Of a stretch of 64,000 nt of DNA, positions 38,449 through 58,255 are shown in pieces. Each line of letters starts with the position of its first letter. The stretch's first letter is position 1. Below the pieces are notes generated by a model that made no database searches, was not told the origin of the DNA, and was given only the letters and a program-made list of their open reading frames with translations. This DNA comes from Prorocentrum cordatum (lineage: Eukaryota; Sar; Dinophyceae; Prorocentrales; Prorocentraceae): positions 211,336-275,335 of the forward strand of contig CAUYUJ010015713.1 of the NCBI GenBank assembly GCA_963575745.1, read 5' to 3'. The position numbers were made by a program, and so were the translations under genes.

Positions 38449-40644
38449 ATGGCGTTCCCCTGGCCGTACCGCTATATGGAACGTTCATCCGCAGCCTCTG
38501 CTCCGCGAGGCTCGTCCGAAGTGTCGCCGCCTCGCGGTGCTTCTCAGCCTGCGGAGGAAGGTCGACAGACGCCTGGTCCTGGCGCTCTGCAGCCTGCGTC
38601 TTTCACGGTCGCCTCCTTCAATTTCGGGTTCGAGCAGGGCATGATGACTGGTAAGCAGGCGGCCACTCACTGCGCTAACTTCGGAAGGGTGTGCGCCACG
38701 ATAGTGGAGACCGCTGATGCTGATATTGTCTGTGCATGCGAGGTCGGTGCGTTCCGTGAAGGCTTTCGCCGAGCAGCGTTCAACGTGACAGAGATCCTCA
38801 GTAAGCCTTTCGGTGATGGCATTGGCTTCTCGGAGGTCGACAACTACTTGACTCTCTGGGGCTTTCGCGGTGCTTCTCAGCCTGCGGAAGTGACTCTGTG
38901 CGAAGACAGCCAAGTTTACAGGCCTCCTAGCGGGCGAGAGATTGATGCTGTTATTTCACATTTTGAGGTGAACAAACCAGGCCATGACAAGTTCGACGCG
39001 GTGATCGCCAACATGCACATCGTCTGCGGCAAGAAACCGCCGACCATTCAGACTTGAAAGCGGACAGTTCGCCATCTCCGCTTGCACCTGGGCGGCATCG
39101 CTCAGATTCTCAATGCTTCGGAGCCGCACGTGCCAGTCGTTCCGCTTGTAGTCGGCGACGACAACCTGACTTTCCAGGAGGCGCGGGAGGCTTACCAGCG
39201 CCAGCAGAACGACGAGAAGCTCTGGGAGGTCCTTGCCACTCCGGCCGACCTCAAAGGCGACCACGTCGCGGTCTGCGGAGCAGTCGCCCGTTTCCGCTCG
39301 ATTGCCGTTGGCGCGTCTTTTACGGATCGTGGCATGCGCAACGACGCACACGATGCCGTGGCGGTTGTGCTCACTCTCCCTGGTGCTTCTCAGCCTGGGG
39401 AGAGCAAGAGGCGGAAGATTGTCGTCGAAAACGTCTCCGACGCCGACGCCAGCGCACAGGCGGACGCCGAGTCTTCTGTGCACTGGGATCGGTCGCCGAG
39501 CCCTACTCCTCCGCTTTCACCGACTTCACCGGCTGATCCCGACTACGTCGAGGATGTCGTTCAAACTCGCGCGAACGACTTGCACAGGGAGCTGCGGCAG
39601 TTTTGGGACGAAAGGTACGACGAGGAGTACGATCCGAAAGTCCTCTTTCATCTCAGTCTCTTGCTTTTCAAAAAGAGGAAGTCCACGGAGCTAGCGGACG
39701 CTGATCCAGCTGGCGCTCCTCAGCCTGGCTCGGCATATGACGCGGCCTTTGCGTCTCAGGAGGAGACTGGCCGAACCATTCTCTCTGTCCTTCAGCTTCG
39801 ACATGACTTTCTGCGGAGCAAGAACATCGACGACATGCGCTACGTTCTCACGGAGCCTGAGCGCCAGGAATTGGTCAGAGTAGCTCGCGACCAGTACGAG
39901 CAGTCGCGGCAGCAGCGTGCGCTTCAGGAACGGGATGTCGAAAAGGGAAAAGCGAGAGGCAAGTCTGCGCCACAAGGGGGCCATGCGGTTCCGCAGGGTC
40001 CTAACAAAGGGCCAGGCGGTAAGAAAGGTTCTCGCGGTGCTTCTCAGCCTGCGGGAAAAGGTGGCCAGGCCAAGGGTGCAGGTCTGGGTAGCGTCGCCAA
40101 GTTTGTGAAAGACCAGAAGCGTAAGCGGTGGCATCGCCATTTGCAACGTGTGGCCGGCACCAAACAGATCTGGGAGGTGCTGGCCTTCTCAGGGCGCTTC
40201 GACGTTGATTGGCTAACGCAAGCGTTGCAAGCTGATCACAGTGAGGGCCGTGATACAGCAGCTCCCGAGGAAGCTCTGCGGGAACAGCGGCGCCGTCTGC
40301 ACCACCAGAAGGCCGAAGCCATCGCGCGCTACAACGAGGGGGAGCGGCTTTCCCGCCATCGCGAAGAGCTCCGTCGTGTCGGCGCTCTTCCGTCTGCCCG
40401 GGCTGGCCAGCCAAAGCCGAACCTCACGCGCAGGCAGCTGGACGTGTTGCAGATGTTTGACAGCGGAGAGCTGCTTGAAATCCGCAACCAAGCGATTCTG
40501 GCGTTGGGACACGGCCGTTTGCGCAGGGCCGGAGGCGACTACCTTGACATCGGCGGCATCACGGGCGGTGGCTCCAGGCGCATCATCGATTCTTGGCAGC
40601 CGCCAGACTGGCGTGACTTCCTCCAAGACGATCAGGACATCTGA
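38449..40644 (+). pseudogene. EEP-fold (endonuclease/exonuclease/phosphatase) protein, one in-frame TGA
   Basis: ATG 38449; a single in-frame TGA at 39055-39057; then the same frame is open to TGA 40644, about 730 codons in all. EEP landmarks span the stop: FTVASFNFGFEQGM (residue about 50), ADIVCACEVGAFREGF (about 91), IANMHIVCGKK, then after the TGA PVVPLVVGDDNLTF (GDxN-like) and NDAHDAVAVVL (SDH-like). EEP enzymes cleave phosphodiesters; LINE and Helentron endonucleases belong here. The C-terminal 350 residues are charged and coiled, with no known domain. GA(S/P)QPA peptides, encoded by the 20-nt motif, occur near residues 30, 140, 313, 424 and 529. The TGA may be a null mutation (CGA to TGA fits), readthrough, or an assembly error. 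Confidence 0.65.
38534..38553 (+). repeat. 20-nt motif, coding copy (GASQPA)
   Basis: Reference copy of GCGGTGCTTCTCAGCCTGCG. Other copies inside the EEP gene: 38866, 39381 and 39711 (diverged) and 40034, all in the frame that reads GASQPA/GAPQPA. Confidence 0.9.
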
Positions 40645-40659
40645 GTTTTGCAAGCCTCC

Positions 40660-40950
40660 CTGCCCGCGGTGCTTCTCAGCCTGCGGTCTGCCGCTCTCCA
40701 GCTGCGGTCTCGAGCAGTAGTGTTCGAAAGCATGCGAGTTCCTGCGGTGCTTCTCAGCCTGCAGGTTTCGCAGCTTGCGCTCTGCAGTACAAGTGCTTTT
40801 CAGCATGCGACATCCTGCGGTGCTTCTCAGCCTGCAGGGTTCGCAGCGTGCGGTTTGCAATGCATTCCTTTTCAGTATGCGAGTTCCTGCGGTGTTTCTC
40901 AGGCTGCAGGGCTCCGAGGCTCTTCGCTTCGATGCCAATGTTGTCAGACA
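40660..40950 (+). repeat. 72-73-bp tandem repeat containing the 20-nt motif
   Basis: Directly after the EEP stop codon, CATGCGAGTTCCTGCGGTGC occurs at 40731, 40804 and 40876 (third diverged). Each unit holds one 20-nt motif followed by CAGG.TTCGCAGC and a degenerate half-motif TGCTTTTCAGCATGCGA. A further motif precedes the array at 40665. Confidence 0.8.
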
Positions 40951-42085
40951 CCGTAGCTCCGTTCCGTAAACATCTTCCAAGAGCCGCTCGCAACCTTTTG
41001 CAGTTGGCGGTCTGCAGACGTAGTTCTTCTCAGCATGCGAGCTCCCTCACGCTTCGCCGGCTTTTGCTGCGCGGACAATTTTCTCACACACGTCAGCGCC
41101 GTCTGTAGGCGTCAGAAAAACATGTACACATTCACGAAGGGCTCAGTCTGTATATCGTCACATCATTACATACGCAGTCGTCGAACACATCGGTGTACAT
41201 TCAGCGCTTTGTCCTTCTATAGCATTCTTTCCGTTGGTAACAGTGTTCTGATGGGTTCGCTTCGTTCTAAAAGCGTTGATAGCAGTGTCTCGTTTGCGGA
41301 CAACTCATTGTATATCAACTCACTGATACAGAGTTTCCTTTCACCATAAGTGAATGCATACCAGTGTATGTTGGTTACTACAAATGTTGGTTACTACAAC
41401 CGACTTCATGATCGCTATCATCATCGCAGATTTCACTCATCCTCATCACCACGACTGGTTCACGTTGGCCTGCGGTGCTTCTCAGCCTGCAGTTCCTTTC
41501 GTTACACTGTAGTTGAATCCGTTCATGGCAGTGACTCGTTTAAAGACAACTTTAGTATTGGTGGAAGTGTCGATAGCAGCGTTTCTTTTTAATTATACAA
41601 GCGTTGATAGCAGTGTCTCGTTTGTGGACAACTCATTGTATATCAACTCATTCATGCAGAGTTTCCTTTTAGCAGCAAGTGAATGCACAGCAGTGTATCT
41701 TCATTACTGGCCCCCACTCCATTATCACCATCATCATCAACGATTTCCTACACGCGCGTGCGCGGCGGTCGCCAGAAGTGTATAGTTTGCAGAGACTTCT
41801 CGTATTGATAGCCATGGGTCACTTCAGACTGAAATAATTTGTGATCTTCTTTTATTGGAAGTTGAATCGGTTGATGGCAGTGCCTCGTTTAAACTCAACT
41901 TTGGTATTGCTAGTAGTGTCAATGCCAGCGTTTCTTTTTACTTATACAAGCGTTGATAGCAGCGTCTCGTTTGTGGTTAGTTATAACAGCGTTGATAGCA
42001 GTGTCTCGTTTGCGGACAACTCATTGTACATCAACTCACTGATACCGTGTTTCCTATCATCACCATCATCATCATCCTTAACCTC
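40951..42085 (+). repeat. Intergenic spacer with 21-nt GTTGATAGCAGTGTCTCGTTT repeats
   Basis: Copies of AGCGTTGATAGCAGTGTCTC begin near 41272, 41603, 41951 and 41989, usually followed by GACAACTCATTGTATATCAAC and a GAGTTTCCTTT block. The 20-nt motif is at 41471 within GGTTCACGTTGGCCTGCGGT. ATCACCATCATCATC runs precede the next gene. Short frames here are repeat products. Confidence 0.8.
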
Positions 42086-42107
42086 CTCGTAGCCATTTTG
42101 CTTAGAG
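42086..42107 (+). promoter_or_regulatory. Possible relict dinoflagellate spliced leader
   Basis: CGTAGCCATTTTG is a 13-nt exact match to the core of the known dinoflagellate spliced leader (CCGTAGCCATTTTGGCTC...), followed by CTTAGAG. About 16 of 22 positions agree. It lies upstream of the 42.4-kb ORF, in the same position as the second match at 47484. Relict leaders arise when trans-spliced mRNA is reverse-transcribed and re-inserted. Confidence 0.55.
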
Positions 42108-42148
42108 CTGTCCTGTCCTGTACATGCCTTGCGCCGTGTGACCACGTG

Positions 42149-42170
42149 GCGCGGTGCTTCTCAGCCTGCG
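42149..42170 (+). repeat. 20-nt motif, non-coding copy
   Basis: GCGGTGCTTCTCAGCCTGCG, exact, between the possible leader relict and the next ORF. Confidence 0.9.
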
Positions 42171-42411
42171 TAGTTCTTCCAGGTGCTCCTCGGCGTAGTA
42201 GCCATGGTGAAGAAATTCTTTTTGAAAACGAAAAAAGGTGTGACCAGGAGGTTTTTACCCGCGGTCGTTCCCACCATGGAGAAGAAAGACTTGGCCACCC
42301 CGAGGAGTGCTACTATGGTTTGGCATTGCTCATTCCGTCCGCCCATGTTGTATTTCGTTTTCGTTGGGTTCTGCTTTGAGACATCTCCATACTTATTTAA
42401 TTGTTTCGGGA

Positions 42412-43731
42412 ATGTTGTTCTGCGGGATTCTGGTGCATTGCTTCGTGCATTACAGGTTTTTTGTTGTGTGTTCATATTTCGGAAACATCGTTAAGTATTT
42501 GGAAACTCCCGGGACAGCTTTCGACAAAGGGGTTGACCGAAATCATTTGGGACAACTGCTCATTATCTATTTCGGATTGCGGATTTCAGGTCGCCGCCGT
42601 GCTGCGAGGAGAACGACTAGGCGCTCCAAGTACAATCGTCCTGTGAAAGTGTCGCTGCAGTTCAATGTCATATCTTCATTGTTACTGGGCCTAAAGACAG
42701 CAAGGAACAGGTATGAGCGGTGCTTGCTTAGAGATGCCGTCGCTCGCTCCCGCATGCGGAGTTTTCCTCCGCCTTCGAACTCAGAAGTTCAATTCGCATG
42801 TGGGGCATGTGCAGCTAAGCAAACGCGTGATTGCATATGCTCAGGCATAGCATCAATGCATGGCTGTGTGAATGACAAGCTCTTGTCCGAATTCGTTTCA
42901 GGTGTTCGATCGCCAGACAACCCTGTATATCAACCATTTGACCCTGACGATCAACGCAAATTGCAGGAATCTCTGGAGCATGGTGCCGCGGTGCTTCTCA
43001 GCCTGCGAGGTTCGCGCAGCATGAGTGTTCTGGTACGTTCCCGCCACCTTGTGCGCATGATTTACATTGCTGCCATGACGGGCTTGGCAGCGACCGTGGA
43101 TGCTGCAGCGCCATACCTTGCTCAGAACGATTTGAGAGGCCTCAGGCGCTACCTTGATACTGCGGAGGTAGTGCACCGTGGCGGCCAACATCCTGGGAAG
43201 ATTTGTCGCGGCAACCTGACAGTGCAGCTTGTTCAGTTCATGCGCGTCGCGGGGAACAAGATGGCGCGTTTGCTCTCGTCGTGCACGGCTTCCCTGCAGA
43301 CTGTTCGGCGGCGACAGGTGCTTCTCAGTCTTGTCAAACTAGTCTTCCAACTCGCGAACAAGCGCGGATTCGAGGTCGATGGCTGTGGAGCATACAAATG
43401 CAAGCGAATTCTGGAAATCACCTTGCTGGCTGGGCTCAGTTCCAAACTGACATTGCCACACTTGCTGCCTGGTGACCTTTGCGCTTTGTCTGGTTCGTGG
43501 CCGGTTCCAAGCGGATCGCGCCTTGGCTTGAGAAAAATCATGCCCGGCATGACTTCGAAGATTCGGGAGCAACAGGCTTTGAAAGCGATCTCTTTGACAC
43601 TCGGCTCCGGCGGTAATGGCAAGTCGGTACCTGTTTGCATTATATCTGCAATGTTGTGCTTTTGGAACGAGCATAAGAATAACGTCTTGCAGTGGGTGCA
43701 GGAGTGGGTGCCCAAGATGCGGCCGCACTAG
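42412..43731 (+). CDS. Unrecognised protein in the Helitron-like cluster
   Basis: The frame is open from 42307; the first in-frame ATG is 42412, giving about 439 residues. The N-terminus MLFCGILVHCFVHYRFFVVC is hydrophobic (possible membrane segment, or untranslated leader read through), then a basic stretch (RRRAARRTTRRSK). The centre has a Cys-rich CGACAAKQTRDCICSG motif (about 42800) and the C-terminal half is helical, ending VLQWVQEWVPKMRPH. No family recognised. The 20-nt motif is inside the frame at 42987-43008 but read as AVLLSLR, with a decayed copy at 43313 read as QVLLSL: a different frame from the GASQPA reading of its neighbours. Intronless, + strand, head-to-tail with the EEP and RPA-like genes. 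Confidence 0.5.
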   Translation: MLFCGILVHCFVHYRFFVVCSYFGNIVKYLETPGTAFDKGVDRNHLGQLLIIYFGLRISGRRRAARRTTRRSKYNRPVKVSLQFNVISSLLLGLKTARNRYERCLLRDAVARSRMRSFPPPSNSEVQFACGACAAKQTRDCICSGIASMHGCVNDKLLSEFVSGVRSPDNPVYQPFDPDDQRKLQESLEHGAAVLLSLRGSRSMSVLVRSRHLVRMIYIAAMTGLAATVDAAAPYLAQNDLRGLRRYLDTAEVVHRGGQHPGKICRGNLTVQLVQFMRVAGNKMARLLSSCTASLQTVRRRQVLLSLVKLVFQLANKRGFEVDGCGAYKCKRILEITLLAGLSSKLTLPHLLPGDLCALSGSWPVPSGSRLGLRKIMPGMTSKIREQQALKAISLTLGSGGNGKSVPVCIISAMLCFWNEHKNNVLQWVQEWVPKMRPH

Positions 43732-43761
43732 GCAGCGAGTTCCTGAAGACTTGTTCGTTTG

Positions 43762-43800
43762 CCTGCGGTGCTGCTCAGCCTGCGGTGCTGCTCAGCCTGC
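43762..43800 (+). repeat. Tandem pair of the 20-nt motif
   Basis: GCGGTGCTGCTCAGCCT twice in direct tandem, 30 bp after the stop codon of the preceding ORF. Both have TTC to TGC, so the pair arose by duplication after the change. Confidence 0.9.
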
Positions 43801-43932
43801 GTGTATGCTCATGAACAGCATTCTCTCCTGTGGCCACATCTCGATCTTCCTTACACATGCAGGTGCTGATGGGGCAGCGCCGATCCGTATTGACTTGGAA
43901 AAGGAAAAAAAGATTGGAAAGAGTGAGGACAC

Positions 43933-43997
43933 ATCAATGCGTTTGGCAACCTAAGCACAGACTGTCTGTCTGTGCTTAAGTTGCCAAACGCATTGAT
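43933..43997. terminator. 30-bp-arm hairpin in the intergenic spacer
   Basis: Left arm 43933-43962 and right arm 43968-43997 pair with a single mismatch around a 5-nt loop (cores TTTGGCAACCTAAGCACAGAC / GTCTGTGCTTAAGTTGCC). The right arm and following GATTCACGTT are shared with 46785-46820, so the hairpin was made by inverted duplication of a spacer segment. It could serve as a 3'-end or processing signal; the terminator label is tentative. Confidence 0.6.
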
Positions 43998-44008
43998 TCA
44001 CGTTGGCA

Positions 44009-44029
44009 CGCGGTGCTTCTCAGCCTGCA
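44009..44029 (+). repeat. 20-nt motif, non-coding copy
   Basis: Set in GATTCACGTTGGCACGCGGTGC..., the spacer context also seen at 41460, 46810 and 47320. Confidence 0.9.
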
Positions 44030-44575
44030 GATCCTTTGCTACATGCGCTTGTTGTGCGGTCGCCCCATATTGATATATGCGGAGACTTCCCATATTGATA
44101 TCATTGCGCCCCATATGTTCTGAATGTGGTTCATTGAATCCCGAATCCGTTCATGGCAATGCCTCATGCCTTTTCGCATAAGCGAATGCATATCAGTTTC
44201 TCTTGGTGACTAGAATCGAGTCATCGCACGAGCATGAACACCACAGCACAGAGCAAGCACCGCATACAGCATACGCAAGAAAATATATAGACCACATACA
44301 GTGCCGCAGCAAATTGAATATTCACAGACAAGTATGAAGCACATCACAAAACAATACAGTACACCACACAGCACACACATCACATCCATCCAGTCACGCA
44401 CACATACAGCAACACGCTTTCTCGACTCCACAGGGGGGGTGCTTCGTGGAGGCATCACTTGTAACTTTGAAATTCTGTAATCATTGCCGTTTTGGTTCAA
44501 AGAACTTGGATTGCAGGAGTTCGAGGCAAAAGCGAGCCTTGTCCGCATCCGCTCACCCAGTCTCACCGTGCCGTG
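44030..44575. other. Spacer, no gene
   Basis: Contains CCATATTGATAT repeats (44070-44115) and an ACACA/CATACAG-rich tract (44220-44410). Nothing else recognisable. Confidence 0.5.
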
Positions 44576-44595
44576 CACGGTGCTTCTCAGCCTGT
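44576..44595 (+). repeat. 20-nt motif 41 nt upstream of RPA-like start codon
   Basis: CACGGTGCTTCTCAGCCTGTG. The TGCTTCTCAG inside it would suit a trans-splice acceptor for the following gene. Confidence 0.85.
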
Positions 44596-44635
44596 GTCAC
44601 TGTGCGCTCCACGGTGATCCTCCGGGTGAGCTACC

Positions 44636-46528
44636 ATGGCTGCTGCTGCAGATCAGCCGACGTCTCCACTGGGTTTTCTCACGAAGAGCAGCGCCAAAAC
44701 CCAAGACTTCCTTGTCCGAGTATACAAGCCCAGGGAGATCAAGTACTCGTACAAGAGCAGGAACAATGGCCAGCTAGTCCATGCAAACCGATTCACATGC
44801 ATTCTGCTTGGCACAGACTCAGAGCACTATTGTGAGGCCATCCTCAAAGGAACTCCAGCAGAAGTCGAAGCTGCTCTGAAGAAGTTCCCTCCGATGACGG
44901 CGTGGAAACTCTCCAGCGTCGGCCTGGACAGTCGGCAGCAGGACGCTTTTGTGCATACGTCTGTTCGTGTCGTGGTCGACCTCAAGCGCACAACCTGCAC
45001 TCCAGTGCTCAAAAGCTCTCCGGAGGAGACCTCCTTGGCATCGGCGCCGGCTCCAGCGACTACAGTGGCAGACATGATGAACATCAAATCGCAGCGTTGC
45101 TTCGATGTCATGGCTGTGGTTCATTCTGTTTCAGAAACCCGCACTCCCGCTGGCCACCCTCCAGTGGCAAGTGTACATCTGGTCGACGGCACACAGACGA
45201 GTAACTCCAAGACAGCGGAGGCTGTGATTGCAGTCTGGGGATCCACCAACATTGAGCTTTGTCGCTCTCACAAAGGACAACCGCTGCTGTTTCTCAACGT
45301 GGCGGGCAAATTCGACGGCAAACTGGAGCTGAACTTGTCGCAAGGTCGCGCGGTGGATTCTGCATGCTCTTGTCCCAGAATGACTCAACTACACGACTTA
45401 GCAGCCACTCAAGACTTCGCGAAGGACCAGGAGCAGCTGACCACCGCTCATGCGGGCACATGGGATCCAGACCACGCTTCGCAGATTCTCACCGGAGAAG
45501 CACTCCTCTCCTGCTGTGCCTTTCTGGCTATGGCGTCGGATGATCCGAATGCAAACTTGCCACTCTTGTTGCAGGTCAATGGGATGAGGCTTGAGGAACC
45601 GGAGCCAGCCGACTCTGTGGTGGAGAACACAGGCGAGCGCGTCTTCTTTACGACTACTGCTCGTGATTTCAGTGGCTCGTGCAAAGTCGGCGTATCCCAA
45701 GCGGCAGCCTTCGCCTTGACTGGCATTGATAGCATGCAAGAATTCAAAAAAGTTCACGACGAGAAAGCTATCTCCTTCCCTCCACTGAGCAATTGTCGCA
45801 TCATACGACGCGTGCGCAATGTGGCTGCGAATGCACAGGATGACACACCTCAACGGACTTTCGTCAACACGACTGTGGTGGCCGTTTCACCGCTTCAGAT
45901 ATCGCACGCCCCGAATACGTCTTACAATGTCGTCTTGGAGATCCTGAAGCAGTGCCGCGAGAGCCAGGATGCAATGCTCGCGGCACAGCTCTCTGAGATA
46001 CGGTCTTGTCCCTTCTACGGCATGCGCGTGCAGTACTCACCAGCGGGTGGCGGGGGTGACGCTTCTCAGCTTACCCGGAACTGCCACTTGGCAGTCGTTC
46101 TCGTTCGTACCACGCAGAAGTCTCGGTGCGTATCCACTGCGGCTGGCTTCGTCGTGTCCACACCAGGTGTCACGGACGCTTCTGACGGTGAGTCTTCCCA
46201 CTCAGTGACGATTCGCGGACATTGCTCAGTTGACAACTTGCTCTCGTTCAAAATGGATCCGCCCAACCGAGCGAAGCACAGAGTCTGCTTGTTGCTCATT
46301 ACTGGCTGTTCAAAAGATGGCATGACGGTGCACAGCGTGACCCACATTGACGACTCCGTCGTGTCTGAGGCGCAGTACTTCATTAAAAAATTGAGAACAC
46401 TGGGGATGCGCACAGAGCTTCAGCAATCAGGCGAGCATAAGCGGATGAATGAGTGGAGCAAGACGCCGGAATCCGCCAAGAAGTGCCGAATTCTTGAAAG
46501 CCACCCCTCAGGAGAAAGCTTGAGATGA
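44636..46528 (+). CDS. RPA-like OB-fold protein (tentative)
   Basis: 630 codons from ATG 44636 (context ACCATGG) to TGA 46528, uninterrupted. Residues about 150-240 (RCFDVMAVVHSVSETRTPAG, then VASVHLVDGTQTS, AVIAVWGSTNIELC, KGQPLLFLNVAGKFDGKLEL) follow the pattern of an RPA1-type OB fold: 'dvigvV..v', 'v.l.D.tg..v.l.lWg', 'G.pvl...v..f.g..L'. The rest lacks a motif I can name; a C-terminal CCCH-type zinc site is not evident. Replication protein A binds single-stranded DNA, and RPA-like genes are classic cargo of plant Helitrons. A weak motif trace (GACGCTTCTCAGCTTACC) lies in frame at about 46058. Alternative: an unrelated OB-fold protein. Confidence 0.5.
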   Translation: MAAAADQPTSPLGFLTKSSAKTQDFLVRVYKPREIKYSYKSRNNGQLVHANRFTCILLGTDSEHYCEAILKGTPAEVEAALKKFPPMTAWKLSSVGLDSRQQDAFVHTSVRVVVDLKRTTCTPVLKSSPEETSLASAPAPATTVADMMNIKSQRCFDVMAVVHSVSETRTPAGHPPVASVHLVDGTQTSNSKTAEAVIAVWGSTNIELCRSHKGQPLLFLNVAGKFDGKLELNLSQGRAVDSACSCPRMTQLHDLAATQDFAKDQEQLTTAHAGTWDPDHASQILTGEALLSCCAFLAMASDDPNANLPLLLQVNGMRLEEPEPADSVVENTGERVFFTTTARDFSGSCKVGVSQAAAFALTGIDSMQEFKKVHDEKAISFPPLSNCRIIRRVRNVAANAQDDTPQRTFVNTTVVAVSPLQISHAPNTSYNVVLEILKQCRESQDAMLAAQLSEIRSCPFYGMRVQYSPAGGGGDASQLTRNCHLAVVLVRTTQKSRCVSTAAGFVVSTPGVTDASDGESSHSVTIRGHCSVDNLLSFKMDPPNRAKHRVCLLLITGCSKDGMTVHSVTHIDDSVVSEAQYFIKKLRTLGMRTELQQSGEHKRMNEWSKTPESAKKCRILESHPSGESLR

Positions 46529-46548
46529 GCTTCTGATGTCTTGTCAGC

Positions 46549-47480
46549 GATGCTTCTCAGCTTGCTGGACATGGCAAGCGTCTTTGTTCTTCGCCTTGCG
46601 GGATGCCAGCTAGGTTTGCCTCAAACATATCGTTTGGTAGTTTCCTTTGCCTTGTTTGTTTATGCGGTGCTTCTCAGCCTGCACTATTTACTGTTGTGGC
46701 GTCTGGTGCAAGAGTAGTGTTTGCGGCCTGCATTCCTCCTCAGCCTGCCCTGGCTCCCTTGAGAGTGCCTGCACAGAGTTTCGGTCTGTGCTCAGGTTGC
46801 CCAACGGATTGATTCACGTTCGCCTGCGGTGCTTCTCAGCCTGCACTTCCTTTGCTACAAGCGCCTGTTCTGCAGTCGTTCAAAGTGTCTCGTTTACAAA
46901 GAATTTCCGTATTGATATCCCTGTCTCTTTCCAGAAAAAAAAAACATTTCTACATGTGTTTCATTGGACCCTAAATCAGGTCATGGCCGTGCTTCATTTC
47001 AAGACAACCCCCATGTTCGTAGCAGCGTCGATATCAGACGTTCGTTCAGTTATAAAAGCGTTGATAGCAGTGTCTCGTTCTCGGACACCTCATTGTATAT
47101 CAACTCTGGCTGTGCCTCATTTCAAGACACCTCCCATGTTCGTAGCAGCGTCGGTATCAGAGGTTCGTTCAGTTATAAAAGCGTTGATAGCAGTGTCTCG
47201 TTTTCGGACACCTCATTGTGTATCAACTCATTGATACCGAGTTTCCTTTCAGCATACGTCAATGCATAGCAGTTAATCTTACTTACTGGAACCGCCTCCA
47301 TCATCGCTATCATCACGACTGGTTCACGTTGGCCTGCGGTGCTTCTCAGCCTGCAGATCTTTTGCGACCTCATCATCGCCATTGATCATCATCACCATCA
47401 ACATCACTGATTCACATCATCACCATCACCAACATCCTCCACAACGAATTTCCCTCATCACCATCATCATCATCATCAAT
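46549..47480 (+). repeat. Intergenic spacer with 20-nt and 21-nt motifs
   Basis: 20-nt motif copies at about 46549 (diverged), 46664, 46823 and 47333. The GTTGATAGCAGTGTCTCGTT motif at about 47056 and 47182 lies within two copies of a 125-bp unit (CCCATGTTCGTAGCAGCGTC ... TCATTGT.TATCAACTC). It ends in CATCATCACC runs. Layout repeats that of 41.2-42.1 kb. Confidence 0.85.
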
Positions 47481-47483
47481 GTC

Positions 47484-47505
47484 TCCGTAGCCATCTTGCC
47501 TAGAG
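47484..47505 (+). promoter_or_regulatory. Possible relict dinoflagellate spliced leader
   Basis: TCCGTAGCCATCTTGCCTAG agrees with the spliced leader at about 18 of 22 positions and sits 44 nt before ATG 47549. It shares a CATCATCATC lead-in with the match at 42086, so the two come from one spacer family and are not independent observations. Confidence 0.6.
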
Positions 47506-47548
47506 CTATCCTTACAAAGGAACTTTCCAGCACCCACTGCACACAGTA

Positions 47549-50500
47549 ATGCCACTGCATGCTGGTAGCTCTCGGTCTGGGCGCCATGCTCCTGACGTTT
47601 CTGCACCCAACAGCGGTGCTCCTCAGCCTGCTGCAGTGAGCAGTGCCCCTCCTCAGCGTGCTGTGTTGAGCGGTACTGTGCAAAGGATTGTTGACCTGGT
47701 GAAGCAGTTCGGTCGTATACCGAAGCGACAGAAAGGAACGTCCGAGGAAGTGCGAGCTGAAAACAAGTTGGCCAAACGTTTCTCCGACCACCGCGACAGC
47801 ATTCCTAATGACGTTATGTTAGAGTTGCAAGCCCTCGAATGCGCCACGCCTTCAGAGTCAGCCGCTGTCAGCGCTGCCCTTCAGCGTTCTGCATTAAGCG
47901 GATCTCTGCAAACGCTCGTCGAGGACGTGAAGCAGTTCGGTCGTATACCGATACGAAATAACGGAACGTCTGAGGAAGCACGAGCCGAAAACAAGTTGGC
48001 CAAACGTTTCTTTTGGCACTGCGAGAGCATTCCTCATGACGTGATGTTGGAATTGCAAGACCTCGAGGAGTCACGCGCCGTCAGCGCTGCTGCTCAGAAT
48101 GCTGCAGGTGCTGCTGCTCAGCGTGCTGCAACCGAGGAGTTCAAGCGGAAGCAGAAGACCGATGAGATCCTGCAGCAGGTGCGCGAATTCGGCAGCTGGC
48201 CGAAGGAGAGCGCTCAACGCCCGCTTGCAGAGCGGCAGTTGGCTTGGCACATCCGAAAAACACGGAAGGCCAAGCATTTCTCACCGGAGCAGGAGGCCGA
48301 GCTTCAAACTCTGCAGCAGGCGGATACGAAGTCCGACGGGCTCATGCAGCAGACGAAGATCGAGGAGGTCATGCAGCAGGTGCGAGACCTCGGCCGCTTT
48401 CCGAAAGAGTCCGCCGGGCGTAGTGTTGCAGAGCGGCAACTAGGCTGGCTAGTTCGGAAAGGATTGAAGGCCAAGCAGTTCTCTCCCGAGCAGGAGGCCG
48501 AGCTCCAGGCACTCCAGCAGGCGGAAAGCGATGGCAAAACAATGCTTCGCATCGCGGAGGCGGAGGAAAGGCCAAACCCCATGGAAGGGTTCGCTGAGGA
48601 GGCGCAGAACAGGATCGACCAGGATCTGCTGATGCTGGAGAGTGGCATTCGTAACAAGGCAATCCTGCGGCGCCTGGCCACCTACAAAGAGCTTGTGTCC
48701 AGCCGCGGTGCTCCTCAGCCTGCGCAGCACAGGGAATTTGCGCAGAGGTACGCGGAGCGAGTGCGGAGAGCGTTGGCTGCTCCCGCGGGGAAGAGCTGCT
48801 ACGTTCCCGGCGGCGAAGTAGAGGGGGACCAGTTGCGCGTTTTCTCTAACCGTGCAGTCATGACGGGACCGCTCGTCTGCCAGCTCTGCGACTGCGATTT
48901 CTTAATAGAAGAGGACTTTGCGCGGCATAAGCAGTGCAACCACGCCGGCGAGGCAGAATGCCGCAAACGGGTGCTGTACCTGATGGCACACGCTGGCTGC
49001 AGGCCGATAACCGCTCAAGAGAAGAGGATCATGGTGCATAATTTTGTTGACTTCCAACAGTTCTGTCACCCTGGCAGCAAGGCCAACCGCTTCTCGGGCG
49101 GCGAGGCGGTGCCCCGAAGCGAGGCAGCCTGCGTAGTCTGTGCGCAGAAAGACTACCTGGAGCATCGCCACAAACTCAGCCTGTTTGGAGCAGTGCCGGA
49201 GGAGCGTGTCTTTGAGCACTGCGCCGACTCAGCAAGCGATCGTGATGACCTATCCGATGGCGAGGCAGATGCTCCACCCAAGCGTGCTCTGGTGAAGCAC
49301 CGCGGGGTGTACTACTTGCAGTCCCCGGAGCTCGTGCAGAAGCTCCTGGACGTGGACAGGTACAGGCAGCGGTGGCCACTGATCCCGTGCGAACAGCTGC
49401 ACGCGTCCAGCGTTCAGCATCCGGAGCACCCAGAGTGGCGGTGGCTGCTGCACTCCCGCCGAGTCCCTGTGGTTGCACCACCAGAAGCAACGGCGGGAAC
49501 CTGCGGTGCTTCTCAGCCTGCTGCCGACAGGTCCGGCGGAGCTTCTCAGCCTGCGGACGAGAGGCCTCCGTGCGCAGGGGTGGGAGATGCCAACGCGTTG
49601 GTGTGGGTCTGTTGGGATTGCCTCAATGACCTGTGCGCCAAGAAACCGAAGATGCCGTTAAACGCCCTGGTCAACGACAACTGGATCGGCCGGGAGCTCA
49701 TGCTCGTCCGCAACGCTTCGAAAGCTACTAAGATGCTGGCGCCCCTTGGCCGATGCTGTTGGAAGCAAGTCCGCCTCGGCAAGGGCGCTCCGGATGTCCA
49801 GCAGAAAGGCATCTCGGGCAACACTATCCTCTTCGCCCAGCCCACGGCGCAAATCCCGACCATGGAGCTGCCCCCGGAGCAGGGCGCGCTTGTGGACTCT
49901 CTGAACATCGTTTTCTCGGGCGCCGCGCACAAACTCCACAAGGCGTACTGGGCAACAGTCAAGCGCGGCGAGTATATGCAGATCGTGAGGGAGCGCAAGC
50001 AGCAGTGCGCAACCTTTTCCGAGGTATCCGTCCGGGAGGATGTTGCCCCGACACGGCTGCCGGAGGACGGCGTGCCAGACCACATCCAAGCCTGTCTGCA
50101 ACCAGTGGACGGTGCGGACAAAGCCCCGGTACGTCTGTTGGGGCCAGCATCCAGGGCGCCGGAAGTGGGCAGAGACGACGAGGCGGGAGACGAGTCTGAC
50201 GAGGAGAAAGAGACAGACAAAGACGGAGAAGCAGCAGAACAGCCTGACATGGCCTACCTGCATGAAAATGTGGCAGAGTTCACAGTTGCAGTGGATCCAG
50301 TGCATGACATCGCTCCAGTCCGAATGATGCAAGCGCTGCAAGGCACGCTGGTGGCGCTGCAGGAGCAGGCAGCACGCATCGCCAAGAACGAGGTGACACC
50401 GACAGTGGCAGACAGCAGCGGTGCTCTTGAGCCTGTTGCCGACGAGGGCGGCAGGCATACGATGCGCAGCATGGTTCTCGATGTGCAGAGTGCTGCTCGT

Positions 50501-50745
50501 TCGTTCGACGAGCGAGCGCAGGTGGTGCTGGAGAAAGCGCAAGCAGGAGCAGACGCGTGCAGGGCTGTGGGCCCGCACTCCTTATCGGTGCCTACGCAGA
50601 AACCCTTGAGTTCTTTCGACAGCAGGTCTTGGCCGGCGTGCTACACAGAGTTCTGGTTCGGGGACGGCGCGCCGAACCTCGAGCGGGAGCGGCCCATGCT
50701 GTTCGAACAGGTCTTCCCCAGGAATACTACTTATGCTACCAGTGT
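47549..50745 (+). CDS. Helitron-like Rep/helicase, N-terminal part (HA-like repeats, zinc finger, DUF6570-like)
   Basis: ATG 47549. The frame is formally open to 51244, but from about 50745 it is minisatellite. Residues 30-320 hold four copies of a helicase-associated-like repeat (VKQFGRIPKRQKGTSEEVRA; ...WPKESAQRPLAERQLAWHIR; ...FPKESAGRSVAERQLGWLVR), probably DNA-binding. Around 443 there is a C2H2-type finger (CQLCDCDFLIEEDFARHKQC-NH). From about 684, CWDCLNDLCAKKPKMPLNAL, then NDNWIGRELML and GNTILFAQPTAQ, is the DUF6570-like region that precedes Rep in many Helitrons. EFWFGDGAPNLERERPMLFE (about 1033) is the link to the Rep domain, which resumes in the same frame at 52262. GA(S/P)QPA copies at 47612, 48703, 49502 and 49535. 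Confidence 0.75.
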
Positions 50746-52258
50746 TGATAGAGGAGTCGATCCATTGATAGCAGTGTGTCGTTTGGACCTACATGTGTTG
50801 ATAGCAGTGTCTCGTTTGGACCTACATCCATTGATCGCAGTGTCTTGTTTGTACCTACGTGCGTTGATAGCAGTGTCTCGTTTGGACCTACATGTGTTGA
50901 TAACAGTGTCTCGTTTGGATCTACACCCACTGATAACACTGTTCCGTTTGGACCTACATGTGTCGATAGCAGTGTCTCGTTTGGACCTACACATGTTGAT
51001 AGCAGTGTCTCGTTTGGACCTACATCCATTGATAGCACTGTTCCGTTTGGACCTACATGTGTTGATAGCAGTGTCTCGTTTGAACTTACATGTGTTGATA
51101 GCAGTGTCTCATTTGGACATACATCCATTGATAACAAGGTTGCGTTTGGGCAGCGTCTCCTTTGGACCTACATGTGTTGTTAGCAGTGTCTCGTTTGGAC
51201 CTACATGTGTTGATATCAGTCCCCTTTGGACCTACATCCATTGATAGCAGTGTCTTGTTTGTACCTACATGCGTTGATAGCAGTGTCTCTCTTGGACCTA
51301 CACGTGTTGATAGCAGTGTCTCTTTTGGATCTACACCCACTGATCCCATTGTCTCGTTTGGACCTACATGTGTTGTTCGCAGTGTTGCGTTTTGACCTAC
51401 ATGTGTTGATCGCAGTGTCTCGTTTGGACCTACATCCATTGATGGCAGTGTCTCGTTTGTACCTACATGCGTTGATAGCAGTGTCTCGTTTGGACCTACA
51501 TGTGTTGATAGCAGTGTCTCGTTTGAACCTACATCCATTGATAGCACTGTTCCGTTTGGACCTACATGCGTTGATGGCAGTGTCTCGTTTGGACCTACAT
51601 GTGTTGATAGCAGTGTCTCGTTTGGATCTACACCCACTGATCCCATTGTCTCGTTTGGACCTACATGTGTTGTTCGCAGTGTTGCGTTTTGACCTACATG
51701 TGTTGATAGCAGTGTCTCGTTTGGACCTACATCCATTGATGGCAGTGTCTCGTTTGTACCTACATGCGTTGATAGCAGTGTCTCGTTTGGACCTACATGT
51801 GTGGATAGCAGTGTCTCGTTTGAACCTACATCCATTGATAGCACTGTTCCGTTTGGACCTACATGCGTTGATGGCAGTGTCTCGTTTGGACCTACATGTG
51901 TTGATAGCAGTGTCTCGTTTGGACATACATCCATTGATAGCAAGGTTGCGTTTGGACCTACATGTACATGTGTTGATAGCAGTGTCTCGTTTGGACCTAC
52001 ATCCATTGATAGCAGTGTCTTGTTTGTACCTACGCGCGTTGATAGCAGTGTCTCGTTTGGACCTACATGTGTTGATAGCAGTGTCTCGTTTGGACCTACA
52101 TCCATTGATAGCACTGTTCCGTTTGGACCTACATGCGTTGATAGCAGTGTCTCGTTTGGACCTACATGTGTTGATAGCAGTGTCTCGTTTGGACATACAT
52201 CCATTGAACGCAAGGTTGCGTTTGGACCTACATGTCTTCATAGCAGTGTCTCGTTTCT
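50745..52258 (+). repeat. 33-bp minisatellite inside the Rep/helicase frame
   Basis: About 45 units of 33 bp. Each starts GTTGATAGCAGTGTCTCGTT and continues with a GGACCTACAT block, with variants (CCATTGATAGCACTGTTCCG; CACCCACTGATCCCATTGTC). A higher-order repeat is visible: about 305 bp at 51405-51700 recurs at about 51710-52000. 33 is divisible by 3, so reading frames persist (VDSSVSFGPTC in one, LIAVSRLDLHV in another), but the Rep frame meets stops (TGA 51242). The same 21-nt core is dispersed singly in spacers at 41-42, 47 and 58 kb. Confidence 0.95.
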
Positions 52259-52261
52259 TCG

Positions 52262-55200
52262 TCCTTCGAGGTCGCACGGCGCCTCATCAACCTGGAGGAG
52301 CTCGAGTACTCTCTCGCGACCGACGAGGAGCCCTGCGAGGCAGCCTGCCAGAGCCGCTTCAGCTCGCCAGAGATCATTTCTGTCTTCGGCGACGTGATCC
52401 GCCGGCTGCGGCTCTTGAAAGGCACTCGGGCGGCGATTGGCAGGAAAGGCTTCGGCACTGACCTCCAGATCCTGTCAGAGGCGTCGGCGGGGGATTTTAT
52501 GGAGGCGCTAAACATCGCTAAGCCGGGCGACTGCATCGGCTCCGCCATTTCACGCCCGGGCACGCCTGCGAAGGTCAAGACTGCCCTCAGGACGTTGCTT
52601 CTCAGCACTTCCGATGTCCCTGGCACGGAGGGGCGGAAAACCGCACTCCGCTTCGACGGGCACGGCAACAACCTCAAGTTCGGCGCGGCCAGCTTCTTCG
52701 TCACACCGAACTTCGCAGACACGTACAGCCCGTTGGTCCTCCAGCTTCACGAAGGGCCCGGAAAGCGGAGCCACTTAGACATTCGCGGGGGCGCGGTTGG
52801 CGCGGTGGCCAGAGCCGGCGGCGCTTCTCAGCCTGCTGGCCCTGACCTGCGGAGTCCAGCTCCGACCATGCCTTCTCTGGAGCGGATGCACCAGATAGTG
52901 GCAGCAGACCCGCGGGCGCAGGCCAAGTTCTTCCTGTTGATGACGGAGCTTCACTACCGCTACATCATCGGCTTAGAGCGCCTGTTTGTTGGCCGCACAA
53001 CGCTAGCCCGACAGGCGGTGACAACGGAGGACGACGTGGCAGCGTCTCTGCAGCCGTGCGTGGCCCCAGGCACCACTGATGTGCAAGCGCCTTTCGAAGC
53101 ACAGGGTCGGGGCTTCACGCACGGCCACGGCAAAGGCCACAGCGTCATCGGGCCTACGATGGCGTGGCTGCGGTCGGCAGTGGTCGGAGGCCTGCGCACC
53201 GCCGCTCGGGAGCTGCGAACTGCGCTTCTTTCCACCGCGGAGACCGTGCAGTACGAAGCTGCCAACGAGCCCGCACGGCAGCTGGGGCTTCCTGACGTCG
53301 CGCCAGAGCCTTTCACAGCCAGGCAGCAACGACAGAGCCGCATGGACGGAGGGGAAGAGGAGGACGGCACCCTGCGCGACGAGGTGCCTCTCGGCCCGCC
53401 AGTGGAGCAGCCGCACCTGGTGGAGGAGCGAGCGCGGGCAGCCGCAGAGAACCGGATGCCTGCAATCGGCGCTGCAGCGTACCGGGGCCTCCCGCTCACA
53501 GGAGCCTTTCAGTCTACGTTTCCAAGCTACCGCCAACGAACTAGCTTCGGGCAGCTAGGTGGCGCTCCTCAGCCTGCCATGGCAGCCAGCCATGCTAGCC
53601 TCTTCCAGACGAACGAGGATGGAGCGATTCAGGAAGTCCTCAAGCCCGATGGCTCGCCGGCTTCGGTCGAGGAGATTACCGCAGATGCGGAGGCTTGGGC
53701 GGTAGCGTTTAGCCATGACTTCTTTTGCAACATCTGCTCCAACCACGAGCACGACTGCACCGAGACGTGCGTCAAGTACGTCAAGAAGAAGCTCGAGGCC
53801 AAAGAGAGTCTGCGCTCGAACAGAACCCCGTCGTGCCGCTTCTGGTTCTTTCGCATCCAGCAGCTATGTCTAGCAGGCCGCACCAAGCGAGTGCGTCGGC
53901 GCGGCAAGCCTTTGGTCCGGACTCCGTTCATCGACTTCTCTGATGACCGCAACCAGCGGTGCCGCTGCCAGGTCAAACGCGACCAGCCGTTCAGGAGCTC
54001 CAGCAACGACGTCTCTCAAGTGACCAGCCGGTGCAACGTGGATTTCCAGTTCTTGATGTGCGCGCCTGACGAGTCTGCCGAGGCAGCAAAAGTGCTTCAG
54101 CCTGGTGGTGCTCCTCAGCCTGCCCAGGACGGGCTGCCTGCGGCCGCCCCAGCTCAGCTGGCCAAGCGCAGAAGGCTTACCAAGAAGACGGCCAGCATGA
54201 AGAACCCAGAGTCGGCAATCGCATTGCGCTCATCCAAACAACTCGGCGGCCGCAAAAAGTGGCTCTACGGTTGTGGCTCCTTGCATCCGACAGATGCATC
54301 TGTCGTGGAGAGCTTCCAAGCTGCTTTCCAGAAGGCTTTCTCCATGGACTTCTACATCACGAAGTACCAGGGCAAGATGATGGAGTCCATGACGCCGCTC
54401 TTCCAGTCTATGCTCACCGGCATGCAGCGTCTGGAGCAGCAGGAGAGGGACGAGAAGGAGGAGGAAGCCCGGAAGGTGCTCAGTGAGGGCGGCGCTGATG
54501 GCGAGGACCAGACGCTGGCCAAACGGGGCCGGACGCGCGAGGATCTCGCTCGCCGCGCTCGGCGGGTCTGTATCCGCCTGGCGTCGATGGCGAACCGGTG
54601 CTTCTGGCTCTCCACGACGGAGGTGGCCGTGCATATCCTCACAGGCGGCGACTGCCTCCAGTCGCACCACAATGTGCGGCTCTTCACGAGACAACTACAG
54701 TGGGCCTGCCAGCAGTGCAAACGCTTGCTAAACCATGAAGGTTCGGGCGAGGAGACGCATAATGATCAGGTGCCAATACAAGCAGTCCGCATCCAGATCC
54801 CTGACGCCGACAACGAGGAGGAGGACGCAGCAGGTGACACCAGCGGTGCTCCTCAGCCTCCTGGAGACACCCCTGCTGGTGATGAGCAAGGTGGCGGTGC
54901 GGAGTGCGAGGACATGCACGCGTGCACCACCAGCACGAACACGGCCGACGACTACGCCCACAGAGGCCCTCGCCTGCAGACCATGCCGTACTACGTCTAC
55001 AGGATGTACGTCCGGCGAGTCCTGAAGCCGAGCCGGGTCAAAGCTTCTGGACCGCGATTCTTCGCCTTCGAGAGCCACTACGTCATGGCTCCGCGGTACA
55101 TGCAGGAGGTCCGGTTGACGCGGAGTCACGTCCCCACCATCGATGGCTTCCAGTGCCCGACCTGGGCACAGGACCCCGAGCAGAACTCGCTCTTCAAGGC

Positions 55201-58015
55201 CCTCCTCTTCACGCCTTGGGCGTGCGAGTGTCCCCTCTCTTGTGGCTGCGTTACTCAGTACAGCCATATGCTGAGGAACTGCGACTGCCCCGCCGTGCGC
55301 CCATACTCGTTCGAGCGGGCGTGGCGGCTTCGGTGCGCGGAGATCCACGTGTTGGCAGCGCGCGCAGACTCCAGGAGCCGCCTGGCCCGCAAGAGGCTCG
55401 TGCTCGCGGACACGACCCTCTTCTCCGAGCTGAAAGAGCCCCGGGCGAACCTCGAGGAGGGCGAGCTGGTGCTCCTCAGCCTAGCGCACTTCGCAAGGTC
55501 CCAGCTGGCGCGGCGCATGCCAGCGGAGGCGGCACGGCGCATCCTCGCCTTCAGTGACCACCACTGCCGGTGGCACGAGGAACAGTGCACCCTGGCGGAG
55601 TTCTGCGCGCACGTGGCGCGAGACGTGCTGGCGCACGTGGACCTCGCGGCGGAGGCGCGGGTTAAGCCTCGGCCAGCAACGACTGCACACCTCGAGGCGG
55701 ATGAAGACTCCGCGAGCGATGCCGAAGGGCTCAAGGGGCGAGTCCCGCTGGAGCTCGTTGACGTGGGTGGAGGCGGCGGCAGCGACGTAGAGGAGGACGT
55801 GGAGGACGCCGAGATTACCGAGATCTCCCGGTTTCCGCTGCGGGACCACGTCAGAGCAACCGAGCTGGCCCTACAGCAAGACCAACTGCAGCGCTTGGAC
55901 CAGAAGGGCCGCCTCAGCTACGCCGATAAGCAGTTGAAGAACCTCGACCGAGCGTACAGCGGCATGCTGCAGCCCAGCTTTGCACTGCCAGCCAGCAGCG
56001 GCGCGCGGGAACATCAGGGCACGCGGCTGGACGAGACCTTTTCTGACATGCTCGCCCTACAGCGGCAAAGCATTGCGCTCCAAAAGAAGCAAGCGAGCCC
56101 GGATGGAGAGATCTTGCCCGATGCTGCGGACGACTGGCTCCCCAGCGGTGCTCCTCAGCCTGCTGCCGAGGACGCCCAACCAGAACTCGTTCCGCAGCTC
56201 TTGGCCATGCAGGGCCCGGCGGCTGTTGCGTGGAAGCTCGTCACTGATGCCCACTGCACGGAGGAGCAGATTGACGCGGTGGCGTTGTTTGCGTTGTCTC
56301 TGCAGAAACGTTTTGACGGCAGACCAGACAAGACAACGCATCTCCTCCCCGTGGCGTCCGCGACAGGCAACCACAGAGCGATCTGGCTCGGTGGAGGCGG
56401 TGTCGGCAAGACGCGCACCCTCTCCAAAGTGGTGGAGCCGATGGCCATCACTTACTTCGGCGAGCAGGGGTACCTCGGCAAAGCGCAGTCCAACCACGCC
56501 GCACACAACCTCGGCCCGCGCGGCAGGACCATGCATTCCTCCAATGGCCTGCTCATGTCGGATTCCATGCAGACAGCCAGGCTGCGCTTGACGCCACAGA
56601 CGCAGAAAAAGCTGGATCGCCTCACAGGCACACTCGGCGTCGACGTGATCGATGAGCTGGGTGCTGTGCCGGGGCCTTTGCTGCATGCAGATGCACTGCG
56701 CACGACCTACGGCAGGGCGTTGCGCTACAACCTGGACCCCGCGAAGTACATGCGCCCGCAGGAGACGTGGGGACGCATGCCTGTGAAGATCTTGTGCGGG
56801 GACTTCTACCAGTTGCCGCCAGTCCCCGCCACCGCTTCCCTGCTGGCGCCTCACGCGGGCCAGTCCTACGAACACCAACAGGGTAGGAAGTTGCTCGCCG
56901 ACATCGAGTACGTCATCGATTTCGTGCAGATGCAGCGCTTTACAGACCCGTTGCAACTCGAGGTTCTCCACGCCATGAGAACTCCAGGCGGAAAAAAGAT
57001 CTCTGACGAGAGCTGGCAGGCGATCGTCAAAACAGAGGTCGTTAGCCCTAGCGGTGCTGCTCAGCCTGCTGCCAGCAGCAGCGAAGCCGCTCAGCCACCT
57101 CAGTGGGACCCTCGGTTGCGTGCAGCACGAGGCTGGTACGAGTCGGCCTATGAGTGGCGCATCGTCTCTTACGCCATGCATGCACAGGCCAAGCTTGATG
57201 CGCACGATGCTGGCCAGCTGCTCTTTTACGTCCCAGCAATCGACAGACCAGCTGCGCGCCTCGCGAAGCCTGATTTCGACGAGATGCGCGCGGAGCCCAA
57301 CATCGGCGCTACCGCAAAAATGCCGGGGCTGCTGCCGCTCTTCGTTGGCATGGAGGTCATCCTGACAGAATCCGTCTTGCCGCCGAAGTATGTCCGTGGC
57401 GCGCCAGGCAAAGTGGTAGGCATAGAGCTGCACGCTCTGGAGCCTCCGGTGGAGGGCCGCCCGTCCATTGTCTCGGACGGCGTGGTCGTACTCTACTACA
57501 TGCCAAAGGCCGTCTATGTCAAGATCGATGACAGCGATGAACTTTTCTTGAAGGCCGCGCCGGTGACAGCTGGCAGTGCTTCTCAGCCTGCCGGCCCCGA
57601 CCTGCGCGGAGTGCTCGCGATCACCCCGCAGGCGCGCCCCTGGAAGTTCAAAGCGAAGACAGGTGGCCCGGCCATCGCGGTGTCCAGGACGCAGTTGACC
57701 GTGCTGCCCAAAAAGCAGGGGACTCTGCATGGCGTCCAGGGCAAGACGACGGACCCAGGCTTCATCGTGCACTGGACGTTTCCGCCAGGACTCAAGAAGG
57801 AGTCCATTTGGCTTGCCTACTACGTCAGCCTGTCGCGCCCCAGAAGCTTCAACCAACTCTTGAGCCACGGCTTGCCTGACCGGAGCATCATCGAATCCGG
57901 CCCCCCGGAACAGATCGCCAAGGCCTTCGCCGAGCTCTTCACGGACAAGATTGCCGCGACGAAGATCGCTTGCGCGAAGGCCCGACAGCAACTGGGATGG
58001 CCTGCGCGAGCTTGA
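52262..58015 (+). CDS. Helitron-like Rep/helicase, HUH-Y2 Rep and PIF1 helicase part
   Basis: Same reading frame as 47549-50745, open from 52262 to TGA 58015. The formal start at 52394 is GTG, so it is a continuation rather than an independent gene. Counting from 52394: Helitron N-domain [20 protein letters not shown] (about 95); [20 protein letters not shown] (about 176); HUH motif [13 protein letters not shown] (His 243, 245); Cys/His cluster [15 protein letters not shown] (about 445); Y2 motif YITKYQGK (Tyr 654 and 658, the YxxxYxxK of Helitrons). PIF1 helicase: Walker [12 protein letters not shown] (about 1335), Walker B VDVIDELG (about 1415), [11 protein letters not shown] (about 1467), [11 protein letters not shown] (about 1778), [10 protein letters not shown] (about 1808). 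It nicks, unwinds and rejoins DNA by rolling circle. GA(S/P)QPA at 52817, 53561, 54101, 54841, 56141, 57050 and 57576. Confidence 0.85.
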
Positions 58016-58029
58016 GGAGCCATGAGATG

Positions 58030-58255
58030 CAGGTTGCGTTGTGGCGGTGCTGTTCAGTCTGTCCGTCTGCATTCGCGTGGTGCTTCTCAGCCTGCATGCG
58101 CGCGGTGCTTCTCAGCCTGCGCTCGTGTGCAGCTGTGCGCGGTGAGCCTGCGCGTGTCGCGGAATGCTTTTCAGCCTGCGCGTGTCTGCAATGCTTGTCA
58201 GCCTGCACGGTTTGCAGCTTCTCCGCTTCGCACGCCGCTCCTCAGCGCGGTCCTC
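58030..58255 (+). repeat. Cluster of 20-nt motif copies after the Rep/helicase stop
   Basis: GGTGCTTCTCAGCCTGC at 58078 and 58107 and diverged copies near 58162 and 58187 (AATGCTTTTCAGCCTGCGC, AATGCTTGTCAGCCTGCAC), at 25-55-bp spacing. Confidence 0.85.

Follow-up and report, generated by a model that had tools for sequence, protein, structure and literature searches.

The window analysed here is a 64,000-nucleotide stretch of the genome of the dinoflagellate Prorocentrum cordatum (contig CAUYUJ010015713.1, positions 211,336 to 275,335 of the forward strand; G+C content ∼59%). An earlier interpretation made without database searches (the sequence-only reading) had described four intronless genes, arranged head to tail on the + strand between 38449 and 58015, as one autonomous rolling-circle element or a tandem gene cluster built by one. 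Long + strand frames are present at the coordinates that it gave, but we count three genes, one of which appears from its relatives to be split by an intron, in an element that extends beyond those limits. The genes encode an EEP-fold nuclease (38449–40644), an RPA70-like single-strand binding protein with an OB fold (44636–46528), and RepHel, in which a DUF6570 region (exon 1, 47549–50710) is joined to an HUH-Y2 Rep and a PIF1-like helicase (exon 2, 52271–58015); all three lie on the + strand. The element runs from 37360 to 58715 on the + strand (21,356 bp, TACCTAACATCG...GCCGGGATA) and is, with high probability, a 21.4-kb Helitron2-like rolling-circle transposon.

The limits of the element were set by homology and by comparison of its copies. 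In blastn comparisons with the window, leaving out pieces of ≤250 bp, five other loci begin at 37355–37359, and in the two of them that align as far as the 3' end the homology stops at 58718 and 58726. We compared the terminal sequences of eleven 5' ends and ten 3' ends. Every 5' end starts with TACCTAAC and is preceded by T (11/11, three of these being tandem joints), and every 3' end reads GGGATA, the base after next being T (10/10). The consensus sequences are T|TACCTAACA(T/G)CG... for the 5' end and ...TCG(A/C)TGTTAGGTTG(C/A)TTTGCCGGGATA-N-T for the 3' end, and they include inverted repeats of the asymmetric/subterminal type, ACCTAACA(T/G)CGA with TCG(A/C)TGTTAGGT. In the window these repeats are ACCTAACATCGA at 37361–37372 and its inverse TCGATGTTAGGT at 58689–58700 (both + strand), the latter being followed by a 15-nt tail that reaches GGGATA; their variable base agrees between the two ends within each copy read at both ends. 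Insertion at T or TT was read from the flanks of the copies. Comparison of copies yielded the precise shared termini that the sequence-only reading had anticipated, although TACCTAAC and GGGATA take the place of its predicted 5' TC and 3' CTRR, and canonical Helitron1 ends (5' TC, 3' CTRR, A|T target) were absent from the ends compared. A 5-bp palindrome, ACCTA/TAGGT, is also visible at the 5' end.

Neighbouring elements are joined as GGGATA-AT-TACCTAAC at two places, once with a short element before a full one and once in the reverse order; a third tandem joint, between two full elements, has a longer T/A spacer. Tandem repeats with a 73-bp unit occupy 37483–38054 (+), and the same unit is present in a non-autonomous 729-bp relative with the same ends (16690–17418, +), which has the same orientation as the full element and lies 20 kb upstream of it. 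Short relatives with these ends also adjoin the copies in C21510 and C14545 (copies are named here by contig). Tandem gene arrays do occur in dinoflagellates (PMC11453091), and some copies of the element do stand head to tail, as would be expected if the locus were an ordinary, immobile tandem gene cluster. However, the identical precise ends in different flanks, each with T before the 5' end, the existence of short relatives sharing these ends and the presence of loci on many contigs leave such a cluster with almost no probability. A chance gathering of genes is likewise disfavoured because exact ends are shared in different flanks, tandem joints exist, there are several full copies, and the EEP and OB genes are linked elsewhere in the genome, as described below.

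The host assembly comprises 4.128 Gb in 21,875 contigs; 4.15 Gb and 59.7% G+C are given for the genome of strain CCMP1329 (PMC10666404). It contains four further near-full copies of 20.6–22.3 kb. For the EEP and OB genes we worked with lists of matches (83 of 31,919 first-look candidates for EEP and 70 of 677 for OB), so that absence from either list carries no meaning. The OB gene is complete in all 70 of its scored matches. Among the listed matches, 22 contigs are common to both genes, and in all 22 EEP lies upstream of OB on the same strand; once three of the 26 same-contig pairs that bridge different copies had been dropped (two in C19971, one in C1002), the 23 nearest pairs are spaced 3.6–6.0 kb apart. 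Unlinked genes were the outcome that the sequence-only reading had named as overturning it; on the contigs common to both lists EEP and OB are linked, and its claim of a single element stands on the shared ends, joints, copies and this linkage.

RepHel was assembled from two open frames, 47549–51244 (DUF6570) and 52394–58015 (Rep/PIF1). The first, at 47.5–51.2 kb, matches PF20209 (E 1.2e-8), the DUF6570 profile for which a search had been proposed. The second contains weak Helitron_like_N (PF14214) and PIF1 (PF05970) similarities in one frame, as the sequence-only reading had it, and PIF1 was also matched in PDB by phmmer (E 1.4e-4). An HUH motif (H-G-H) can be read from the sequence at 53120–53128 (+) and is aligned in relatives; a candidate Y2 pair, YITKY, lies at 54353–54367 (+), its assignment depending on what we take to be the Helitron Y2 spacing. 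Other Helitron_like_N families are abundant in this genome, with 151 PF14214 matches, long open frames and far better Pfam scores.

Both frames align to single-chain public relatives of 2,285–2,882 aa (n=5: P0035–P0037, P0039 and P0040), in which DUF6570 is joined to the Rep/helicase part. In all nine relatives listed by an anchor search the protein continues across the junction (...FEQVARRL... or similar); in the window, FEQV and ARRL are separated by 1.5 kb that consists mostly of 33-bp repeats. A GT...AG tract stands at the same points in all five loci with both exons (window included), with lengths of 851, 944, 941, 517 and 1560 bp. Because relatives read through the junction, and because a GT...AG tract stands there with four of its five lengths not divisible by three, we read DUF6570, Rep and PIF1 as one two-exon gene of 2,968 conceptual codons (47549–50710 plus 52271–58012) and the tract (50711–52270, +) as its intron. 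This replaces both the four-gene layout and the claim that the genes are intronless. Could the 33-bp array instead code for protein in frame, or be an insertion that disables the gene? One of its frames stays open (LIAVSRLDLH), and the frame of exon 1 extends ∼530 nt into it, but a coding array does not fit the lengths or the fixed GT and AG, and since removal of the tract restores the FEQVARR of the relatives we consider this explanation very improbable. The AGGTC found at both splice points of the intron suggests an introner-like insertion.

Two presumed relics of the dinoflagellate spliced leader (DinoSL) precede coding regions. The first (47485–47505, +), 43 nt before the RepHel ATG, has 4/21 mismatches to what we take to be the DinoSL sequence, and the second, at 42087–42107, upstream of an open frame (P0006) between the EEP and OB genes, has 5/21 on the same assumption. 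Matches at ≤5 mismatches are expected 0.0 times per 64 kb (20 shuffles). The two are not independent, as their flanking sequence is common to both, and a further candidate upstream of the OB gene, at 44481 with 6 mismatches, is no better than expected by chance. The relics may indicate that the genes once passed via trans-spliced mRNA.

The sequence-only reading had placed the nuclease and the OB fold in genes separate from the Rep/helicase, and both assignments hold. An EEP fold was found for the first-frame protein in the predicted model of a relative. In that model the fold is equally close to TDP2 and nocturnin, by a VIA-align ranking that re-ranks Foldseek matches only. No EEP family appeared among the Pfam matches of 33 members of this protein family at E≤5, and a PDB sequence profile gave four weak matches, none of them EEP. 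Two EEP relatives carry a precomputed PF26933 label. In P0081, a public EEP relative on a 17.2-kb contig, the C-terminal tail resembles by eye the C-terminus of the OB protein, which suggests that the two genes are neighbours elsewhere too. In the window copy the EEP gene is broken by an in-frame TGA (39055–39057) and the autonomy of this copy, which had been part of the earlier claim, is therefore doubtful. The RPA-like OB domain opens the 44.6–46.5 kb frame and has an OB fold of the DBD type; an 18-row profile of the protein had no match among PDB sequences at E≤1. P0006 itself (42307–43731, +) was considered as a fourth gene and rejected: two of the three copies holding the region have an aligned stop, one of them also a 1-bp insertion, and it is probably no gene.

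We take the family to be young, multi-copy and recently multiplied. Relative to two copies of another subfamily (C20543 and C21510), RepHel is under purifying selection, with ratios of nonsynonymous to synonymous divergence (dN/dS) of 0.23–0.26 in both exons at dS 0.15–0.175 (exon 2: 0.26 at 0.17). The EEP and OB genes of the same two copies differ from those of the window by a dS of just 0.004–0.017. These are mosaic copies, in which a 5' gene block near-identical to that of the window is followed by the RepHel half of a diverged subfamily; they suggest an exchange of the 5' gene block between subfamilies. Their RepHel also contains an acidic (GAC/GAT) in-frame insertion of 147–162 bp at the position of window 55000, which is missing from the window, C19971, C14545 and C15507 copies.

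Several findings weigh against the reading as a three-gene Helitron2-like transposon. The C15507 copy is a 10.6-kb deletion derivative without EEP, and linkage of RepHel to EEP and OB was seen in the window and the fetched copies only. Both diagnostic Pfam matches of RepHel fall below their curated cut-offs (PF14214, 22.1 bits against 28.9, E 1.9e-4; PF05970, 20.7 bits against 25.9, E 3.5e-4). Among close copies dN/dS is 0.63–0.85 for EEP, 0.25–0.94 for OB and 0.36–1.16 for the RepHel exons; with few changes these values are noisy, and they are not low, so that recent constraint on EEP is unproven.

The most unusual part of the element is a hairpin motif. The private short motifs that the sequence-only reading had noticed in genes and spacers are indeed there, the first being GGTGCTTCTCAGCCTGC, with 41 sites at ≤3 mismatches, all on the + strand and all within the element (38536–58190); 0.23 are expected in Markov shuffles of the element, counting both strands. 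At ≤4 mismatches there are one + and two − matches outside the element in the window. Around this core we recognise 42 dispersed hairpin sites (38528–58214, +) with an inner stem GCT/AGC, a 4-nt loop, a bulged T and variable complementary arms. All sites at ≤3 mismatches in the window and five other loci fall between the element ends within the stretches fetched, and no reverse site at ≤2 mismatches was found in the same six loci. In the genome there are 8,020 exact copies of the motif and none of a reversed control; of the 16 contigs that hold the 100 copies listed, 13 have at least two, always with one strand per contig, and two of these contigs (C30 and C303) also carry EEP matches. In a sixth copy on the minus strand (C1220), one of two stretches has five sites, all reverse, and the other has none. 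Eight loci of ∼3.5 kb from other Helitron_like_N families (L001–L008, of the 151 matches) had no motif sites. Six stretches of viral contigs have one exact motif match each; tblastn found no OB relatives in viral contigs.

We tested the structure on an ungapped alignment of the 42 window sites (the 41 above plus one at 4 mismatches), since sites taken from related copies would not be independent of one another. The inner pairs are near-invariant and the outer pairs vary jointly. Paired cells make up 74.6%, as against 65.9% in shuffled alignments (0/500 as high) and 34–42% in slid structures, and the covariation score is 0.325 as against 0.172 (0/500). The margins are weaker for pairs changed on both sides (9 versus 6.9; 5/500) and for further pair types (37 versus 33.1; 16/500), and one outer pair has six pair types and 21 two-sided changes. 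The excess occurs in genes and spacers alike: variable-arm cells are paired in 100/160 cases versus 80 at the 20 coding sites (whole-arm permutations as high, 2/1000) and in 114/176 versus 97 at the 22 non-coding sites (1/1000). The DNA folding energy is −5.42 versus −4.38 kcal/mol with permuted arms (0/200). There are points on the other side: single hairpins are uneven (z −3.69 to +0.70, with 4/8 folded sites above −1), the tested structure was derived from the same sites, which favours it over slid versions, and the shuffles ignore kinship among sites. We nevertheless regard the hairpin structure as real with considerable confidence.

In genes the motif is translated, and 21 of 23 coding sites (≤4 mismatches) read GA(S/P/A)QPA, the remaining two being weak. 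One regular expression found GAxQPA in 21/36 RepHel relatives and 1/25 OB relatives; it misses degenerate forms such as ...QPT in OB relatives. In the alignments listed, the peptide occupies gap-rich linkers at shifting positions. Motif units change in number by short in-frame steps, namely a 27-bp duplication of such a unit in the EEP gene of C14545 and a 24-bp gain or loss of a motif-bearing unit in exon 1. All of this would be expected of a selfish palindromic repeat that parasitises the transposon with no role in its movement, its arms being complementary since palindromes duplicate or insert at palindromes. Rickettsia palindromic elements and organellar GC clusters are parallels; the former are short palindromes found both in frame in protein genes and in spacers, although they are larger than the motif here and are scattered over the bacterial genome. 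By contrast, the present motif has a small core and variable stems and occupies one strand of one transposon family, and a free repeat should occur in either orientation and outside the element ends as well. A selfish origin is a substantial possibility, somewhat short of an even chance. A role of the hairpins in mRNA (stability, trans-splicing or translation) and not in single-stranded DNA would fit the location of the three genes and all hairpin sites on the same + strand, an arrangement that makes DNA and RNA roles inseparable here. However, 22 of the 42 sites lie outside the three genes, and we think an mRNA role unlikely.

A second motif, TTGATAGCAGTGTCTCGTTT, has 50 sites at ≤3 mismatches, all +, in the spacers and the intron (41276–58565), where it makes up the 33-bp repeats. 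We considered it as a second hairpin; its consensus pairs ∼75% of cells versus 26–58% when slid, but the covariation was not convincing (one of 12 pairs at P <0.01 for 44 sites in the window, and five pairs at P 0.003–0.034 in the non-independent set of all copies) and we call it unproven. Elsewhere in the window there are long GAG/CTC trinucleotide tracts (9221–13958, 25385–25501 and 59437–59604), among them inverted pairs ∼2.4 kb apart.

The ends, joints, copies, gene content, EEP and OB folds and intron geometry are what the analysis showed; the catalytic steps of the mechanism that we consider most likely are inferred. The + strand would be nicked by Rep at the 5' end and peeled off by the helicase, and the RPA-like protein of the element would coat it. 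Rep would end the reaction at the subterminal repeat/GGGATA end, joining the ends into a circle, and the circle would insert at T-rich sites, with which the tandem joints fit. The EEP nuclease would either (i) nick the target or (ii) clear a 5'-tyrosyl Rep adduct, an option raised because its fold is no further from TDP2 than from nocturnin. Since Helitrons transpose only the + strand (PMC6431247), the 42 oriented hairpins would fold on the strand that is transferred. Such a strand, single over 21 kb, would need coating and second-strand synthesis, and the fixed loop and bulge would suit a landmark for a protein. The hairpins might then be distributed recognition sites on the single-stranded element, where a cognate protein would be loaded or the second strand begun, a suggestion that we make tentatively. 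They would have spread through short duplications and been tolerated in proteins as the linker peptide. Put in its most specific form, and no less tentatively, ∼40 structure-defined but sequence-variable hairpins would constitute an oriented 'address code' on the + strand, recognised by a protein that the element encodes (the RPA-like protein, the DUF6570 region or EEP) and serving in strand protection, second-strand priming or self/non-self choice during rolling-circle transposition. To our knowledge no such code has been described for any transposon.

The name Helitron2-like rests on the comparison of ends and target with published descriptions, and is the safest choice. Helitron2 elements, including Fusarium FoHeli, share RepHel, asymmetric/subterminal inverted repeats, a T-rich target and evidence of joined ends (PMC5148889). 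The present element differs in its EEP and RPA-like genes, its oriented hairpin sites and a two-exon RepHel with DUF6570, and also in its size of 21 kb, fungal Helitrons being typically 6–7 kb and up to 14 kb, and maize Helitrons with captured fragments reaching 39 kb (PMC6431247). Helentrons, with their DINE-1/HINE partners, are similar in their subterminal inverted repeats, TT target, encoded endonuclease and RPA, and short non-autonomous partners, some with tandem repeats; in mite HINEs the 3' inverted repeat is ∼38–60 bp from the end, as against 15 nt here (PMC4067079). Their AP endonuclease, which is closest to that of CR1, is fused to the RepHel C-terminus (PMC4067079), whereas in the present element the frame of RepHel ends at 58015, past the helicase, and EEP, which matches no Pfam EEP family, has a gene of its own on the 5' side, so we do not file the element as a Helentron. 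Because RPA is a separate open reading frame in a mite Helentron (PMC4067079), only the separate nuclease is unusual in a layout that had been thought undescribed as a whole. We know of no EEP gene in plant Helitrons. These have an RPA70-like gene beside RepHel (PMC4067079) but canonical ends and target, i.e. 5' TC, 3' CTRR and A|T (PMC5148889). Dinoflagellate introners likewise have a short direct repeat at both splice points (PMC10666404, PMC11453091), but the intron here is filled with a 33-bp repeat found also in the element spacers. Searches of open-licence literature, judged by titles, abstract openings and passages, showed no such elements or hairpin arrays, nor did the listed papers on Helitrons and dinoflagellates judged by title, and in its main text the P. 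cordatum genome paper (PMC10666404) never uses the word 'Helitron'.

These results document a rolling-circle family, large and recently multiplied, in a dinoflagellate genome of 4 Gb. A nuclease of the kind that is fused to RepHel in Helentrons is carried here as a separate gene, which places a TDP2/nocturnin-like fold, as modelled, beside an HUH protein, i.e. a member of the enzyme class that makes 5'-tyrosyl DNA adducts. The oriented hairpins, with covarying stems across the presumed transferred strand and its coding sequence, offer a new and testable component, and if they do form an address code that runs through both genes and spacers, this would be a new component of transposons.

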